A stretch of DNA of 30,438 bases, from the IMG/VR virus record IMGVR_UViG_3300031784_000136, positions 1-30,438 of that record; one strand, 5' to 3'. The notes under the pieces are model-generated. The model worked only from the letters and a program-made list of their open reading frames with translations. It made no database searches and had not been told where the DNA came from. Origin of the DNA: a virus. Position numbers and translations under genes: made by a program. This document shows, in pieces, positions 1,842-13,166 of this stretch (the first letter of the stretch is position 1; every line of letters begins with the position of its first letter).

Positions 1842-2074
1842 ACGGATTCTGCGAAATGTGCGACATGCCGACAGAGCATTTAACTTGTTCAGCATGTGAT
1901 GCGTCTAGCCAATGCCAAAGATGCCTCGTATGTGGGGAGTGTGGAAACTCCGTCGAATACGAGAGATGTCGCGGATGCGATAAAACAATTAACACTGAGA
2001 ACGATGCTTTCCACATGATCGACAGTGTTACCTACGAGTGCTGGGATTGCTATGGCTTCCCGCCAGGGAGATAG
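1838..2074 (+). CDS. Cysteine-rich protein with six CxxC pairs
   Basis: The product has 78 residues, twelve of them cysteines, all in CxxC pairs: C5/C8, C17/C20, C26/C29, C32/C35, C44/C47 and C68/C71. Such a protein could hold about three zinc ions in ribbon or RING-like folds. The ATG at 1838 is chosen because GAAGGAG precedes it closely and it overlaps the stop of the upstream zinc-finger gene. An upstream in-frame start would overlap that gene heavily. The C-terminal aromatic segment (YECWDCYGF) is distinctive. I do not recognise the family; the pattern resembles generic phage-coded zinc-ribbon arrays. A role in binding host transcription or replication machinery is a guess from its early-type location. 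Confidence 0.75.
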   Translation: MNGFCEMCDMPTEHLTCSACDASSQCQRCLVCGECGNSVEYERCRGCDKTINTENDAFHMIDSVTYECWDCYGFPPGR

Positions 2075-2076
2075 CC

Positions 2077-2253
2077 ATGCCTACCTACGAGTACAAGTGT
2101 AACCAATGCGAACACACGTTCGAAACTATACGCTCTTACCGCGAGCGCGAGACTGAGATTGATTGCCCCAAGTGTGGACTAGCCTCTACCCGAGTCTATT
2201 CAGCACCTGCGGTGGTCTTTAAGGGAACTGGCTTTTACTCTACGGGTGGGTAA
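2077..2253 (+). CDS. FmdB-family zinc ribbon protein
   Basis: The product has 58 residues with the standard FmdB opening MPTYEYKC. It carries a C8-x2-C11 and C30-x2-C33 zinc ribbon and the typical ending with VFKGTGFYSTG. FmdB-type ribbons are small putative regulatory proteins common in actinobacteria and their phages; their biochemical role is poorly defined. The ATG at 2077 is chosen because GGGAG precedes it and the family begins exactly there; a longer frame from 2038 would overlap the upstream gene. It is the last gene of the plus-strand trio and ends a few bases before the shared terminator. A paralogue with the same cysteine spacing lies on the minus strand at 8004-8135. Confidence 0.88.
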   Translation: MPTYEYKCNQCEHTFETIRSYRERETEIDCPKCGLASTRVYSAPAVVFKGTGFYSTGG

Positions 2254-4846: not shown

Positions 4847-5006
4847 CGCGGGATTCTAACCTTTCAACTTGGTCTTTCACAGATGATCCCCCGTTATTTT
4901 TAAGTTCGCTCAGATAGTGCTTAACAAGCCAGCGCACTGATCCAATAAAACTTCCTACTATTGTGGTGATGGCAACGGCTAACGCTGCCCAATCTACGGC
5001 TGTCAC
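4806..5006 (-). CDS. Small membrane coiled-coil protein
   Basis: The product has 66 residues. It has one N-terminal membrane helix (about residues 5-30, [20 protein letters not shown]). A charged helix with heptad-like spacing ([15 protein letters not shown]) follows, ending in CEKDK. The start is GTG at 5006, overlapping the upstream stop as TAGTG, with AGGAGCG just before. The 3-prime end overlaps the secreted-protein gene by 41 bases in another frame. The topology, one membrane helix plus a short coiled coil, is common in phage lysis cassettes (holin-associated or XhlA-like hemolysin-type proteins). I infer a lysis-related membrane role at low confidence. Confidence 0.7.
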
Positions 5007-6976
5007 TATAAGACGCTCCTGACTGTTACTAGGAGTAGACCACCGAATCCATCAAACTGACCGTTAGGTGGAGTCTTACGTGAGAAGTCAATGCGCTCAA
5101 TGATTGCTTGGATACGCTCACCAGTGGTGAAGTCTTGCACGTTCACAATATCTCCCTGCGCTTCAATCTCTTCGAGAATTTGAATACGCTCCCACGCACG
5201 GCCTTCATATCCAGTTATTATGTTGTACCTGTCTTTTTCGATATCGTAACACCAGACTGGAAACTGAATCAGTCTCTGGCGCTTAGTGGCAGGTAGTGCT
5301 TTCGCTTGGAACCCTTTGAATATAGGGCCTCTACTGGTATCGCTTGCGCTGCGTGAGAGCGTAAACTTGTATGATAGGAACTCTTGTGGGCCTTCTGGGT
5401 TAGTTGTAGCAGCCTCAGGTGTTCCAATGCTTGAGTTATAAGTAATAATATTATATACAGCAGAGTCGCTATCAATGGCTTGTAGATCCATAGCGCCATA
5501 GGAGTAATCTCCACGCGCGCGGATTAACTTATAATTCTTAGGTTCTAGTGTTCCATAACGGATAGCACCAGTGGTTACGTATCCAGAAGATACCAAGGTA
5601 GATGCATTCTCTATATAGCAGCCACCATTGTTAGTGTTGTAAGCGCTGCAAAATGCTAGACGGTTAGTAGTTCCAACAAAGCCAACAGCAGTAGTTGGGT
5701 GAGCAGTTGCCTGAACTCCAATGATGTCATTTGCATAAGCAAAGCGAAGTGCTTCGCCTTCAATGAGTTGGCTTAAATCTACACGAGTAAGTCCTACGTT
5801 GCTTCCTACACCAGTAGTAGCCCATACGAAACGATCACGAGCAGCAAAGTCATAGACTGGCTGAGTTGATTCAAAAATTAGTGGGCCATAGGCAAGAGAT
5901 CCGTCTTGATCGTTGATCTCAGCAACACGCATACCTTTGCTAGTGCCAATCATCATGTAGCCAAGATAGTAATAAACTTTATGAACTATTTCTCCAGGAG
6001 GAAACTCAGCAGCCACAGAAGCCTGTGTGAGAGTAGGCATAGCGCCATTAGTTCCTAGTGTGTACTTCTGGATAGTTGAGTAGAGTCCGGAGTGACCAGC
6101 AGTGTAGATAGCAGGGCCAGATGCGGTAATACTTGTATAGGTGTAATTAGTATTTGGATTGGTATATACGGCAGTAGGCAAAGAACTTGAGTTAGTTGTC
6201 ATTTCGTATACAGCGTTATTAGCGCAGAGAATAATACGATCTTTAATGTATTCCATTTCAGCAGCGGTTACTGTTATGCTTGGGTGTGTGAATACAACTG
6301 TTGGGGCTACGCCAGCACCATCTGAAATAAGTTTCTTATTGAACTCCAATTTGCCAGATGCGGTGTCATTGGTAATCCAATAGCCAAACTTTCCATCATC
6401 GCACAGAGCATATACAGGATCATCTGTTCCGCTAGCATAATCAACCCAGTGGACAACTGTTCCGTCAGCGTCAATTCGATCTACATCGTATCCATCATGA
6501 AGCAAGATAGCATCAGTGTTGTTGTATCTAACAGAACGGATATGCTGTTCAGCCTTGGTTGTGGTAGTTGTATTAACTGGTGTTGTGACTACGTGGACAT
6601 TGGTGGTATCTTTAAGAAGAGTTACTTGTCCTTTAGTCCAGACATCTACGCCTTGAGAGTCCTTAAAACGGTATCCGATAGACTCACCAGCAGTAGGATC
6701 ATAGAAGTTAATGCCAGTTCCACCATGAAATGATGACTGAGAACGGATCCACCAGCCAGTAAGAGACTGCTCGCCAGGTTCGCGTGAGTTATCAAATTGT
6801 TCCTTGCGATAAGGTGCAGTCTCTCTCTGGTATGGATTGACATCTGTTGGTGCTAAGAAGAACGGGATGCCACCAAAGGCTACGTCGTAATCCTCGGCAT
6901 TGTTAGTCCAGAAACCTGCAGTTCCAGGATTACCAATGTTTAAGGGTAAATCTTCCGTGATATCTGGGGTAGCCAC
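5006..6976 (-). CDS. Large tail protein (minor tail / nozzle-like)
   Basis: The product has 656 residues. The N-terminal 110 residues (with PGEQSLTGWWIRSQSSFHGG) resemble a segment I associate with actinophage minor tail proteins. Residues about 110-480 consist of short repeated beta strands with Gly/Tyr/Asp turns, in the manner of a beta-propeller. The last 90 residues contain YDIEKDR, YEGRAWERIQ and a final FGGLLLVTVRSVL strand. The start is GTG at 6976 with AAGGAG well placed. Position after the fibre block and before lysis genes suggests a virion tail protein. In a short-tailed phage it could be the nozzle or tail hub. No enzymatic motif is seen. The structural assignment is fairly safe; the exact part is not. 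Confidence 0.72.
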   Translation of the reverse strand: MATPDITEDLPLNIGNPGTAGFWTNNAEDYDVAFGGIPFFLAPTDVNPYQRETAPYRKEQFDNSREPGEQSLTGWWIRSQSSFHGGTGINFYDPTAGESIGYRFKDSQGVDVWTKGQVTLLKDTTNVHVVTTPVNTTTTTKAEQHIRSVRYNNTDAILLHDGYDVDRIDADGTVVHWVDYASGTDDPVYALCDDGKFGYWITNDTASGKLEFNKKLISDGAGVAPTVVFTHPSITVTAAEMEYIKDRIILCANNAVYEMTTNSSSLPTAVYTNPNTNYTYTSITASGPAIYTAGHSGLYSTIQKYTLGTNGAMPTLTQASVAAEFPPGEIVHKVYYYLGYMMIGTSKGMRVAEINDQDGSLAYGPLIFESTQPVYDFAARDRFVWATTGVGSNVGLTRVDLSQLIEGEALRFAYANDIIGVQATAHPTTAVGFVGTTNRLAFCSAYNTNNGGCYIENASTLVSSGYVTTGAIRYGTLEPKNYKLIRARGDYSYGAMDLQAIDSDSAVYNIITYNSSIGTPEAATTNPEGPQEFLSYKFTLSRSASDTSRGPIFKGFQAKALPATKRQRLIQFPVWCYDIEKDRYNIITGYEGRAWERIQILEEIEAQGDIVNVQDFTTGERIQAIIERIDFSRKTPPNGQFDGFGGLLLVTVRSVL

Positions 6977-6985
6977 TATATCTCC

Positions 6986-7069
6986 TTAGTATATTTGTAA
7001 TTCTGCTTCATCTACTGCATCATCTATATCCCGTAGTAACGGAACTAAATCAGTAAGTAACGTATCCAT
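6986..7069 (-). CDS. Very small acidic protein (27 aa)
   Basis: An ATG at 7069, preceded by GGAGAAAAT, opens 27 codons. The product is acidic (LLRDIDDAVDEAELQIY) and probably one amphipathic helix. Its TAA overlaps the ribosome site of the large tail gene, suggesting translational coupling. It begins only about a dozen bases after the strong terminator that closes the sulfotransferase gene. No family is recognised. The well-placed ribosome site and tight spacing support translation, but it could be only a leader peptide. Confidence 0.5.
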   Translation of the reverse strand: MDTLLTDLVPLLRDIDDAVDEAELQIY

Positions 7070-7081
7070 ATTTTCTCCAAC

Positions 7082-7103
7082 AAAAAACCCGCCGAAGCGG
7101 GTT
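7082..7103 (-). terminator. Intrinsic terminator after the sulfotransferase gene
   Basis: Read on the minus strand, AACCCGC and GCGGGTT form a perfect seven-pair stem around a TTCG tetraloop, with a run of T on the far side (7087-7082). This is a textbook terminator. It lies inside the otherwise continuous late gene series, 22 bases after the sulfotransferase stop. Confidence 0.88.
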
Positions 7104-7125
7104 AGTTGTTATCTAGTTTTTGCTT

Positions 7126-7965
7126 TTAGAAATCTTTTCCTCTAACTTTCATTAGAGAACCGTCACGCCAGAACTCCATATTAGAATACTTATGCTTGAT
7201 GTAATCTGAAAGTATATCTGTATCTGTTGTTGATTTAGATAGGCTTTCTCTTACATCGTGTAAGTCACTTGGCAGTCCCAAGATAGTATCGTTATCTACT
7301 TCTACTTTTTTAATGTTATCAAAGTTATGCTTATAATCAGGAAGTCCTAGGAACTTATAGATATCAGACATTGTTTCTTCTGGCTTTAATAACAAGTCGT
7401 TATATTCTACGATATGGAATACGCCTTCATTTTCTGGATAAAAAGCAGAAGCCAAAGATAGCAAGGCTTTATCTATATCACCATTGAGTCGCATCAAATA
7501 TTCCGCTATGTTATCTTCTGGTGAACGATAATTATTAATATATAAACCACTATTTGCTGTATCATTTTTTAAATAATCAGCATCCATTGCAACAAATGAA
7601 GCAATAATCTCAAGAATATCACGAACCGTAATAATTATTTTAGGCGTAGGAGTAATAAACTTTTTAATTAAATCAAGATTGTCTGGAGTACCCCAGTCTT
7701 TTTCTCTTTCAATTATTACAGGTTTATTTACGTCTTCGTAAAATGTATTAACAAAAGAAGAAAGCAAGTTCATTGCTCTAAATTGATTTTCTTTATTGCG
7801 ATTTATTTGCTCTGTACGACTACAGATATTTGTATATTCCCACATTAGTTCAGGTAATGGACTCAATGGGGTGCTATAGATATCTGGATTTTGATTTAAG
7901 ATTGCTGATAAAAGCGTATTACCACTTCGCGGTAGCCCGCTCAAGAAGAAAATTTCTTTGTTCAA
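7126..7965 (-). CDS. Sulfotransferase family protein (PAPS-dependent)
   Basis: The product has 279 residues. The 5-prime-phosphosulfate loop is visible as GLPRSGNTLL (residues 10-19). The 3-prime-phosphate site is VRDILEIIASF, with R115 and S123. A late YNDLLLKPEETMSDIYKFLGLP segment is characteristic of P-loop sulfotransferases. The enzyme would move sulfate from PAPS onto a hydroxyl or amine, perhaps on a sugar, lipid or protein. I prefer the TTG at 7965 because AAAGGA precedes it and the P-loop then lies at the usual distance from the N-terminus. A longer start at 7998 is possible. The gene looks AT-richer than its neighbours and ends in its own terminator, like a moron cargo gene. It lies between a zinc ribbon gene and tail genes. 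The substrate cannot be told. Confidence 0.85.
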   Translation of the reverse strand: MNKEIFFLSGLPRSGNTLLSAILNQNPDIYSTPLSPLPELMWEYTNICSRTEQINRNKENQFRAMNLLSSFVNTFYEDVNKPVIIEREKDWGTPDNLDLIKKFITPTPKIIITVRDILEIIASFVAMDADYLKNDTANSGLYINNYRSPEDNIAEYLMRLNGDIDKALLSLASAFYPENEGVFHIVEYNDLLLKPEETMSDIYKFLGLPDYKHNFDNIKKVEVDNDTILGLPSDLHDVRESLSKSTTDTDILSDYIKHKYSNMEFWRDGSLMKVRGKDF

Positions 7966-8003
7966 GATAGTCCTTTCGTCTTGAGCAGGATACCACATTA
8001 ACC

Positions 8004-8135
8004 TTAGTTAGTTACCTCAACGTACTCTGCAGCCTGGCAAGAGTTGCAAGTAGTCTTAAACTGTGGGTCTTCTACATCTCGTTGTTCAAGGTAATCATGT
8101 CCACAGTTAGGACACTTATAAAAATACTTAGGCAT
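8004..8135 (-). CDS. Minimal FmdB-like zinc ribbon (43 aa)
   Basis: The product has 43 residues, opening MPKYFYKCPNCGHDYLE. It has C8-x2-C11 and C30-x2-C33, the same spacing as the FmdB protein encoded at 2077-2253, but lacks that protein's VFKGTGFY tail. A GGAGG lies just before the ATG at 8135, which fixes the start; longer frames would overlap the upstream gene fully. The start overlaps the upstream stop by eight bases. Role unknown; a structural or regulatory zinc ribbon is all that can be said. Confidence 0.75.
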   Translation of the reverse strand: MPKYFYKCPNCGHDYLEQRDVEDPQFKTTCNSCQAAEYVEVTN

Positions 8136-8332: not shown

Positions 8333-9130
8333 TTAATAGTAAATTAAAATACAACCAGAGCCGCCAGTTGAGCCGCCGCCTCCGCCACCGCCACCAGAAC
8401 CGCCTTGGCCTCCGCCAACGCCTGATGTTCCAGCGGCTAAAACTCCACCGCCTCCACCACCAGTTTGGGAACTAGAACCACCAGTTCCTCCAGCGAATAA
8501 CCCTGCTCCACCAGCACCACCAGTTGTGCCGTAACCGCTTCTTCCTCCGCCACCGCCAGTAAAGCCACCGTTACCACCTGCGCCACCTGCACCGCCAGAA
8601 GAAACTCCACCGCCTCCACCACCAGCAAGACCTTGGCCACCTGCTTGAGCCGTACTGCCGCTGTTTGAGCCTTGGCCTCCACCACCGCCAGTACCAGTAC
8701 CGCCGTTAGCAGTACCAGCGATTCCACCAGTAAGGTAAGATATAGAGCCAGCACCGCCTGAATAAGTACCAGAGCCGCCGCCTCCGCCGCCACCAGCAAC
8801 TCCGCTGCCACCGCTGCCTCTTGCACCAGCACCGCCGTAGCCAGCAATGTAACCGTTAAACCTAGTAAAACCACCACTTGAGCCAATAGCGCAGGTGTTA
8901 GTTGCTTGTGTTTTTACCCAAGTTTGAACAACTGCACCACCACCGCCGCCGCCAAAGTGTGCAAAACCTCCGCCGACATTGCCGTCTCCGCCGCCACCAA
9001 CAATCATTGCGTATACCCAAGTAACACCAGCAGGAATAGTAACTGTTGTGCCAGAAGTAATAGTCTGTTGAAGAGTTACTTTGGTTGGGTCAAATCCAGC
9101 GCTTGGCGCTGGGAATACTGAATATGCCAT
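8333..9130 (-). CDS. Glycine-rich adhesin-like tail tip protein
   Basis: The product has 265 residues. A short N-terminal beta domain (about residues 1-45, with a TVTIPAGVTWVYAMIVGGGG strand) leads into a Gly-rich body (about 45-255). The body holds runs of up to nine glycines divided by Ser/Thr/Ala, and the chain ends GCILIYY. Phage receptor-binding proteins such as the distal adhesin of T4-like phage S16 use stacked polyglycine helices with exposed variable loops; this layout matches in composition. I infer a host-receptor-binding tip. The start overlaps the upstream stop (TAATG). The strongly biased composition makes the opposite strand and other frames open, so only this frame is taken as real. 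Confidence 0.78.
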   Translation of the reverse strand: MAYSVFPAPSAGFDPTKVTLQQTITSGTTVTIPAGVTWVYAMIVGGGGDGNVGGGFAHFGGGGGGAVVQTWVKTQATNTCAIGSSGGFTRFNGYIAGYGGAGARGSGGSGVAGGGGGGGSGTYSGGAGSISYLTGGIAGTANGGTGTGGGGGQGSNSGSTAQAGGQGLAGGGGGGVSSGGAGGAGGNGGFTGGGGGRSGYGTTGGAGGAGLFAGGTGGSSSQTGGGGGGVLAAGTSGVGGGQGGSGGGGGGGGSTGGSGCILIYY

Positions 9131-9432
9131 TACGCTATCTCCACTCCGCTAATGTGAAATGCTACTGTTATTGCGCTAGCAAAACCAGCAATAATTTTAG
9201 TTGTAGCAAGCACTTGCTTTAAATCAAATGTTGCTGTTGAGTTGGCTGCAATAGCGCAAGTCTTAAACAAGTCAACACCATCAAGTGTGATTGTAAATGT
9301 AGCAGCAGATGCTGCTGAGTTAGTTACCACAATGTTAGTCACAACTGTAGTTGTGCTTGACGGTACTGTGTATAGGGTTGTGCTTGATGTTGCTGCTGCT
9401 GTTCTAGCCAGAGCCTTTGATGTTGTAGCCAT
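9130..9432 (-). CDS. Small beta-rich structural protein
   Basis: The product has 100 residues, rich in Thr, Ser and Ala. A regular pattern of beta strands (TLYTVPSSTTTVVTNIVVTN, FTITLDGVDLF, ATFDLKQVL) suggests a jelly-roll or Ig-like fold. Small proteins of this type are common in phage tail-fibre loci as trimer or decoration proteins. It is coupled to its neighbours by TAATG overlaps at both ends. No enzyme motif is seen. The assignment as virion protein is from fold pattern and location. Confidence 0.7.
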   Translation of the reverse strand: MATTSKALARTAAATSSTTLYTVPSSTTTVVTNIVVTNSAASAATFTITLDGVDLFKTCAIAANSTATFDLKQVLATTKIIAGFASAITVAFHISGVEIA

Positions 9433-11201: not shown

Positions 11202-13166
11202 TTAGTACGCTCCCATAATAGACATTATTGTTAAGTCTGCACCAGCAGATGCTGTTGCATCTACCCACACATCACCTGATACGGGAGATGTAGGAGTAGT
11301 AGTTCCTGTAAATATTCGTTTACCTGTGCTAGCACCAGTCGGTGTTAGTGGCTGAACCTTGATTGTTCCAGCAGTAGCGGTGTTAGTACCCATACCAACA
11401 AAGTCAACATAGTCATAAGTGACGGCAACTCCGCCTTCAATTTTGACCTGTGAACCTGCTTGGATAGTTCCCCAAGAGGAAGTAGTTCCATCTGTTGTTA
11501 AGTACTTACCATTGTTACCACTCTGGCTAGGTACAACATATTGAGTTGAGTCTGTAGCCACAAGAGTCTTGCTAGATGGAATCGGTGTTCCGTTGATAGA
11601 TGTAGCAGTAGCCACACCAAGTACTGGAGTAATAAGTGTTGGAGTGTTATCCATTACAAACTTGCTGCCAGTACCAGTCTGTGAGGCAACAGATGTTACG
11701 TTACCTACAGATGTGATTGGGCCAGTCAAGTTAGATGGAGCAAGGACTGCAGTATCAATGTAATTCTTAGTTGCTGCATCCTGTGCGTTGGTTGGGTCTC
11801 CAAGACCTGTAATCTTGTTGGTTCCCATAGCAAGCGCACCAGTCATTGTGCTACCAGACTTGAGTACTACTGTGTCTGAGAACGAAGCATTATCAGCCAG
11901 GGCTGCAGCAATCTCATTAAGAGTATCAAGTGTGCTTGGCGCACCGTCAATCAAGTTTGCAATAGATGTATCTACGTAAGCCTTAGTTGAAGCATCTGTG
12001 TTAGATGTAGGTGTACCTAGGTTTGTAATCTTGTAGGTAGCCATTGACACATCTGCAGCAGGTGCTGCCATCTGGTTTAACTTAGATGTACGAACCTGTG
12101 TATCAAAGTCTGAAATAGTTGAGGCAGCCTGTGTGCCTGTGTGGTTAGCACGGGCTAGTGGGTCTGTAGCCAACTTACTTAACTCAATCGCTGCGCTTGT
12201 AGCAATGTCCGCATTAGCAATAGAGTTGGTAAGAGTTAACTTGCCATAAGCAATCTGAGCAGAAGTGTTGATGTCTGCGTTAACGATTGTTCCATCTGCA
12301 ATCTTGGCAGAAGTTACCGCACCATCAGCAAGGTCTCCAGTTGCAATAGTTCCATCTAGGATTTTGGCAGAGGTGATAGCACCGTCAGCAATATCTCCAG
12401 CCACAATAGTACCGTCAGCAATCTTGGCTGAGGTAATGGCTGAGTCTGCAATCTTACCTGTTGTTACGTTAAGGTCTGCAATCTTTGCGGTTGTAACGTT
12501 GCTATCTGAAATCTTTGCGGTGGTAACTGCGTTAGGTGCTAACTTACCTTCTGTTACAGATAGGTCATCAATCTTAGTTGTACCTACTGCACCAGTAGCA
12601 ATCTTGCCGCTTGTAATTGCGCTATCTGCAATATCGCCTGTGGCGATTGTTAGGTCAGCGATCTTAGCGGAAGTGATTGCACTGTCGGCAATCTTTGCTG
12701 TAGTTACGTTAGCGTCAGTAATCTTTGCTGTAGTAACAGCGTTAGACGCAAGCATTGTAGTTGATACGTTACCTGTGCCAGTTGACAAGGTTACGTTAGC
12801 AAGAGTTAAACCATGCGCTGTAGTTGTATTTTCAATGTGAGTATTAGCCTCACGGAAGTCACGGCCGATAGCCATGTGGCGAACTTTAGCGCCAGCAGAG
12901 TGAGCAATCGCTGTGGTTCCATCTACGCCAGTACCGCGAGTAATAGTAAGAGTGTTGCTTCCAGGCGCGCTAGGGGTAATTACATCAACAATTTCTTCAA
13001 GCGCTGTATCTGGATCGATAACTACTGTAAAGGTTTCACCTGATGCAGGAGTAATACCAGAGAGGAGACCAGACGCAGAAGCCACAACCATTGTACTTGC
13101 GCTTGATGTTAGCGCTGAGGTGAGTGTAGTTTCCTGTGAAGTGGAGGAATATTTTCTTATTGGCAT
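11202..13166 (-). CDS. Long tail fibre with decapeptide repeats
   Basis: The product has 654 residues. An N-terminal domain (about 1-135) includes GETFTVVIDPDTALEEIVDV and a TRGTGVDGTTAIAHSAGAKV segment of the kind seen in virion-attached fibre heads. Residues 142-301 are sixteen consecutive ten-residue repeats of the type x-x-V/I-T-x-x-K/D-I-x-D, with degenerate copies to about 333. Residues about 345-480 carry two TGALAMGTNKITGLGDPTN-type units with TKNYID, common in phage fibres. The last 170 residues are beta-rich. I infer a trimeric shaft that joins the tail to distal receptor-binding proteins encoded just downstream. GAGG precedes the ATG at 13166. Confidence 0.82.
   Translation of the reverse strand: MPIRKYSSTSQETTLTSALTSSASTMVVASASGLLSGITPASGETFTVVIDPDTALEEIVDVITPSAPGSNTLTITRGTGVDGTTAIAHSAGAKVRHMAIGRDFREANTHIENTTTAHGLTLANVTLSTGTGNVSTTMLASNAVTTAKITDANVTTAKIADSAITSAKIADLTIATGDIADSAITSGKIATGAVGTTKIDDLSVTEGKLAPNAVTTAKISDSNVTTAKIADLNVTTGKIADSAITSAKIADGTIVAGDIADGAITSAKILDGTIATGDLADGAVTSAKIADGTIVNADINTSAQIAYGKLTLTNSIANADIATSAAIELSKLATDPLARANHTGTQAASTISDFDTQVRTSKLNQMAAPAADVSMATYKITNLGTPTSNTDASTKAYVDTSIANLIDGAPSTLDTLNEIAAALADNASFSDTVVLKSGSTMTGALAMGTNKITGLGDPTNAQDAATKNYIDTAVLAPSNLTGPITSVGNVTSVASQTGTGSKFVMDNTPTLITPVLGVATATSINGTPIPSSKTLVATDSTQYVVPSQSGNNGKYLTTDGTTSSWGTIQAGSQVKIEGGVAVTYDYVDFVGMGTNTATAGTIKVQPLTPTGASTGKRIFTGTTTPTSPVSGDVWVDATASAGADLTIMSIMGAY
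12168..12743 (-). repeat. Coding tandem repeat, 30-base period, in the tail fibre gene
   Basis: Sixteen ten-codon units in exact register (12264-12743), then about three degenerate ones down to 12168. The consensus protein unit is like SAITSAKIAD or GTIATGDIAD. DNA copies are diverged, so the repeat is old or kept by selection on the protein. Confidence 0.8.

Follow-up and report, generated by a model that had tools for sequence, protein, structure and literature searches.

A predicted PAPS-dependent sulfotransferase as an optional gene in the tail-fiber module of a probable actinobacteriophage

What does a sulfotransferase gene do amid the tail fiber and adhesin genes of a phage, and is it a self-contained cargo gene or a part of the module in which it stands? 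This question is raised by a linear virus record of 30,438 bases (IMGVR_UViG_3300031784_000136), which was analyzed as a whole, is referred to here as the window, and is probably a fragment of a larger virus genome. An earlier note on this DNA had placed the gene inside the tail block and had described it as a moron; the placement is borne out, the site lying within a block of tail and adhesin genes. The portal and tail genes of the window resemble those of Streptomyces podoviruses, e.g., Immanuel3 (about 32–45%), and are closer to those of OX376640 and OX376641 (52–57%). By their chromosome names, LanE43-AprE7 and LanE43-AprF5, these two are the Planktophila phages E7 and F5 (PMC10202952). 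Because they are the closer relatives, the host of the window phage is probably a freshwater actinobacterium (acI/Nanopelagicales).

The enzyme and its reading frame

The gene product matches the Pfam profile Sulfotransfer_3 (PF13469) at 5e-18, covering positions 3–213 of 216 with 66.6 bits compared with a curated cut-off of 27. Sulfotransfer_1 is matched above cut-off as well (5e-12). The 5′-phosphosulfate-binding (PSB) loop reads GLPRSGNT (7915–7938, minus strand) and is conserved in 35 homologs, and the end residues of the 3′-phosphate-binding (3′-PB) segment R126…S134 (7597–7623, minus strand) are invariant in them. Herein, G21, P23, R24, G26, T28, R126, and S134, numbered from the upstream ATG, do not vary across the 35 sequences. 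The earlier note had named R115 and S123 as PAPS-binding residues; counted from a TTG start, these are R126 and S134 of the ATG numbering and, thus, the right ones. Structure prediction, which the note had proposed as a check, gave an AF2 model of sulfotransferase fold with a pLDDT of 88.8. Its best PDB matches in Foldseek are TPST1/TPST2 with PAP (E 2e-8), with other sulfotransferases behind; at a TM of about 0.5, these matches do not discriminate the acceptor class. The full-domain Pfam profile, the PSB/3′-PB residues, and the α/β fold together make it highly probable that the product is a PAPS-dependent sulfotransferase, as the note had held. The family phrog_27463 matches the protein end to end (E 1e-98) and is essentially the same family; it carries a function-unknown label and can be annotated as sulfotransferase.

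By sequence (5e-4) as well as by fold, TPST1/TPST2 are the closest relatives of solved structure, at an identity of about 15–20%. In TPST, the first helix is followed by a GEETR motif that contains the catalytic Glu; the aligned region of the window protein reads YSTPLSP and lacks a Glu, in an alignment that the low identity makes uncertain. TPST membership is, thus, not claimed, an equivalent of the catalytic Glu not being clear in the alignment. A C-terminal stretch, KYSNMEFW, was dropped as a family hallmark because it had served as a search pattern and distant members were thereby preselected; by regular expression, it occurs in one of 81 bacterial and none of four other phage proteins.

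The reading frame extends from an ATG over 7126–7998 (minus strand, 290 aa). The TTG at 7965 is likely the better start, giving a gene of 279 aa (7126–7965, minus strand), because the homologs begin there (residue 12 of the ATG form), because an AGGA-type Shine–Dalgarno sequence lies a few nucleotides upstream, and because residues 1–11 of the ATG form are modeled with a pLDDT below 50. With a GC content of 0.331, the gene ranks below every other gene of the window (0.450 ± 0.040 for those), and in this sense it is AT-richer than its neighbors, as had been noted. Its GC3 of 0.265, however, lies inside the range of the other genes (0.353 ± 0.071, minimum 0.257). Comparison with 46 further carrier contigs gave the same picture, the GC3 of gene and carrier differing by no more than about 2 SD in nearly all of them. 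The low GC, therefore, stems mainly from amino-acid content, with ordinary codon usage, and does not by itself show recent acquisition. Foreign codon usage was accordingly rejected as a mark of acquisition, and base composition falls away as an argument for a moron.

An exchangeable slot before tailA

The genes of the surrounding module named here lie on the minus strand. A tail fiber protein (11202–13166) forms one border, and the tail-region protein tailA (phrog_11667; 5006–6976), which serves as the anchor of the slot, lies downstream. The interval between the two is a hypervariable tail-fiber-tip module with Gly-rich adhesins (Gly_rich_2). In the window, it includes a Gly-rich adhesin-like protein with 42% Gly (8333–9130), a candidate acceptor or partner of the enzyme, and a 100-aa protein (9130–9432) that recurs near the sulfotransferase in several carriers. 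In all seven carriers of the window lineage, the sulfotransferase gene is the final one ahead of tailA and follows diverse adhesins. Elsewhere, the slot before tailA holds GT2-like genes, a methyltransferase, or small fiber-accessory genes only; in the cultured Planktophila phage E7 (OX376640), it is filled by a GT2-like gene (L216:9269-9991).

Presence or absence of the gene at this site, another check proposed in the note, can be followed to the nucleotide. Four gene-less relatives (L087, L089, L091, and L093) are 82–97% identical to the window over neighboring shared segments, and by blastn break points their homology restarts at window position 7068/7069, just past the terminator of the gene. 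This point coincides with a conserved small ORF of 27 aa (6986–7069, minus strand) before tailA. In L087, L089, and L091, nothing separates this ORF from the stop codon of the small gene before it, and the site is empty. Compared with L087, the window contains about 1.06 kb extra (7070–8127, minus strand; blastn and sequence comparison), comprising a zinc ribbon, the sulfotransferase, and the terminator. The zinc-ribbon gene (8004–8135, minus strand, 43 aa; Zn_ribbon_8-like, below cut-off) is, thus, co-inserted with the sulfotransferase relative to L087. By eye, it resembles another small zinc ribbon of the window, an FmdB-like ORF at 2038–2253 (plus strand).

Complete fiber-to-tailA intervals number seven with the gene and 41 distinct ones without it, most of the seven having been found by searching with the sulfotransferase gene itself; among 80 loci found with tailA, the gene occurs only in a contig nearly identical to the window. 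The gene tree requires three changes between the window lineage and other phages, at least two of which are forced by well-supported branches, and the freshwater sulfotransferases form a clade of their own (20 rows, 99/95 support). With high confidence, the gene is an accessory, exchangeable member of the receptor-binding module.

The same interval also takes unrelated genes, i.e., an integrase-family gene (L128:1184-1987) and, by eye, HNH-like genes. This would suit a metabolic enzyme whose acceptor is a small molecule or something else in the cytoplasm and whose gene is carried at a recombination hotspot, and Sulfotransfer_3 enzymes have many acceptors. Such a role is nevertheless quite improbable, since the neighbors of the sulfotransferase outside the window lineage, among phages and bacteria alike, are again adhesins and not metabolic genes.

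Several further features of carrier loci were observed. Two or three sulfotransferases occur in one stretch in L004, L015, and L016. A neighbor with the start ‘...PASKFIPDWYK’ recurs (L005:5802-6476, L004:3531-4238, and others), its L005 copy being without a Pfam match, and a similar protein is found in the sulfotransferase-less fiber intervals L057 and L100. In the marine loci L034, L036, L040, L041, and L043, genes resembling 2OG-Fe(II) oxygenases flank the sulfotransferase by eye.

The gene is followed by an intrinsic terminator (7086–7103, minus strand) with a 7-bp stem, a TTCG loop, and a U-tract; the 50-nt stretch around it folds at −17.3 kcal/mol (z −3.8), which agrees with the textbook terminator described earlier. 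Equivalent terminators follow the gene in L003, L011, and L026, and the homology of L003 to the window spans gene and terminator as a single block. The moron described in the earlier note can, therefore, be retained in part: the gene is optional, horizontally moving cargo with a terminator of its own, but neither deviant codon composition nor a promoter of its own was found. A self-contained moron is not supported because a scan for sigma-70-like promoters just upstream on the minus strand found none, because about 38 nt separate the gene from the one before it, and because the terminator is present in about four of the seven carriers of the window lineage.

Candidate acceptors and the supply of PAPS

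Among 29 freshwater carrier contigs, which represent several phage types and are in many cases partly near-copies, a Gly-rich gene lies within four genes upstream or two downstream of the sulfotransferase in all 29, compared with 12 of 96 control genes. The link is marginal when only the tailA lineage is considered (7/7 carriers versus 23/41 noncarriers, p = 0.036). Because of this genomic context, modification of the phage’s own fiber or adhesin, or of a glycan attached to it, is tentatively and somewhat favored over modification of the host surface. The enzyme would herein be a soluble PAPS-dependent sulfotransferase of type-II-like Sulfotransfer_3 fold and a swappable accessory of the receptor-binding module. 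It would be transcribed late along with the fiber genes, transcription ending at the gene’s own terminator, and would transfer sulfate in the cytoplasm onto adhesin or fiber tips or their glycan. The altered charge of the fiber tip may then change receptor binding or virion properties. The sequences show the enzyme family with its cofactor motifs and fold, the optional presence of the gene, the exchange within the slot, and the adhesin link; activity, late transcription, acceptor, and effect are predicted in this scheme. Besides the marginal link and the near-copy contigs, the Gly-rich fibers argue against a virion target, as they offer few obvious acceptor residues.

Gene neighborhood does not fix the substrate, as enzymes that modify surface glycans of the host may likewise stand beside fiber genes, and the gene could instead serve late sulfation of a surface glycan or a teichoic-acid-like polymer of the host. 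The receptor would thereby be changed or masked and superinfection excluded, such that sister phages or released progeny would not bind lysed or infected cells. Type-II-like sulfotransferases commonly have carbohydrate acceptors. The homolog of cyanophage S-SRM01 adjoins a glycosyltransferase and a nucleotide-sugar epimerase in a sugar-gene cluster, which speaks for a host glycan and against the virion. In the same direction, the alternatives in the slot are glycosyltransferases, and for the Planktophila phages, genome protection or cell-wall glycosylation by such an enzyme has been discussed (PMC10202952). Conversely, the position after the fiber genes would be late for exclusion, judged from gene order, and neither a signal peptide nor a membrane segment is apparent in the sequence by eye.

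The adhesin link, moreover, recurs in bacteria. Bacterial homologs (27–35% identity) often lie between Tail_collar genes and the gene of a giant adhesin, and Tail_collar motifs occur in about 40 of 80 bacterial loci, which comprise the best matches only and are rich in Pseudomonas. By coordinate comparison, 20 of the 36 Tail_collar genes in 25 bacterial genomes fall inside the sulfotransferase locus, where about 0.1 would be expected. A recurrent chromosomal cassette (L207, L203, L163, L190, and L210) consists of a GNAT acetyltransferase gene, one to three Tail_collar genes, the sulfotransferase, and a giant repeat adhesin; the one adhesin scanned, at L207, is of the DUF4347/Big_12 type. A literature search for sulfotransferases with tail collars gave nothing relevant by title and abstract. 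Taken with the bacterial loci, sulfation of the host surface is possible but rather unlikely, and the virion fiber or its glycan is kept as the preferred target.

Any sulfation requires PAPS. The genomes of acI bacteria reportedly lack assimilatory sulfate reduction (PMC5301498), and in the probable acI/Nanopelagicales hosts PAPS may, therefore, be missing, which weighs against sulfation of the virion. The protein could then be an enzyme of PAPS-binding fold that is inactive or of changed chemistry, the host making no PAPS. An APS-kinase-like gene was found in five of 30 carrier contigs, most of which are fragments, and the 42-kb carrier contig to which L026 belongs yielded no APS kinase. This alternative is very unlikely, as the PSB and 3′-PB residues are invariant across the homologs, which argues for retained PAPS binding, and as some carriers bring an APS-kinase-like gene beside the sulfotransferase. 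A virion-modifying enzyme would have to rely on the host for its PAPS; some other carriers could draw on this phage gene instead.

Fusions of an APS-kinase-like and an NMN-adenylyltransferase-like (nucleotidyltransferase) part are present at L027:10298-11053, L218, L219, L222, and L261. Such a fusion lies near the sulfotransferase in only eight of 79 loci, directly abutting it in four phage loci, and is very common in phages (at least 600 matches), so that co-occurrence is weakened as an argument. A small membrane protein, presumably resembling DUF2061, follows in L021, L022, L027, and L037. A Burkholderiales cousin of the sulfotransferase lies near an APS kinase (L134:10093-10680) and near a fusion of an aspartyl/asparaginyl hydroxylase domain with a second sulfotransferase domain (L134:6831-8684).

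Comparison with known systems

To our knowledge, no earlier case of virion sulfation has been described. If the preferred reading is true, phages would sulfate virions with an enzyme that shares its slot with those of glycosylation and methylation. The precise empty site, the glycosyltransferase and methyltransferase alternatives, and a cultured relative with a glycosyltransferase make the target of decoration testable, and a concrete puzzle is posed by the origin of PAPS in hosts reported without sulfate assimilation.

Phage sulfotransferases are already known from genome papers, without an assigned function. Those annotated in the cyanophages S-SKS1, S-SRM01, and S-SCSM1 are 26–35% identical to the window protein, and in the cyanophage-like IMG/VR loci L029 and L038 the gene lies, by eye, among fiber-like and GT-like genes. 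Proteins of OM43 phages share the Sulfotransfer_3 domain, and their function ‘remains unclear’ (PMC10580990). Both groups differ from the window in phage lineage and host. The bacterial cassette of Pseudomonas, Rheinheimera, Acidovorax, and others resembles the window by joining a sulfotransferase to fiber- or adhesin-type proteins; it differs by being chromosomal, by its place in another part of the tree, and by its acceptor candidates. That related sulfotransferases generally accompany phage receptor-binding modules and bacterial Tail_collar/giant-adhesin cassettes in order to sulfate their proteins or glycans is conceivable, though unlikely on present grounds.

Mycobacteriophages possess glycosyltransferases that glycosylate virions. 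These (cf. PMC11256854) and the glycosyltransferases of Planktophila phages E7 and F5 have in common with the window that a transferase gene lies in the structural block, that of E7 even in the same slot. The window enzyme would differ from them in transferring sulfate instead of sugar, with the virion as its candidate target.
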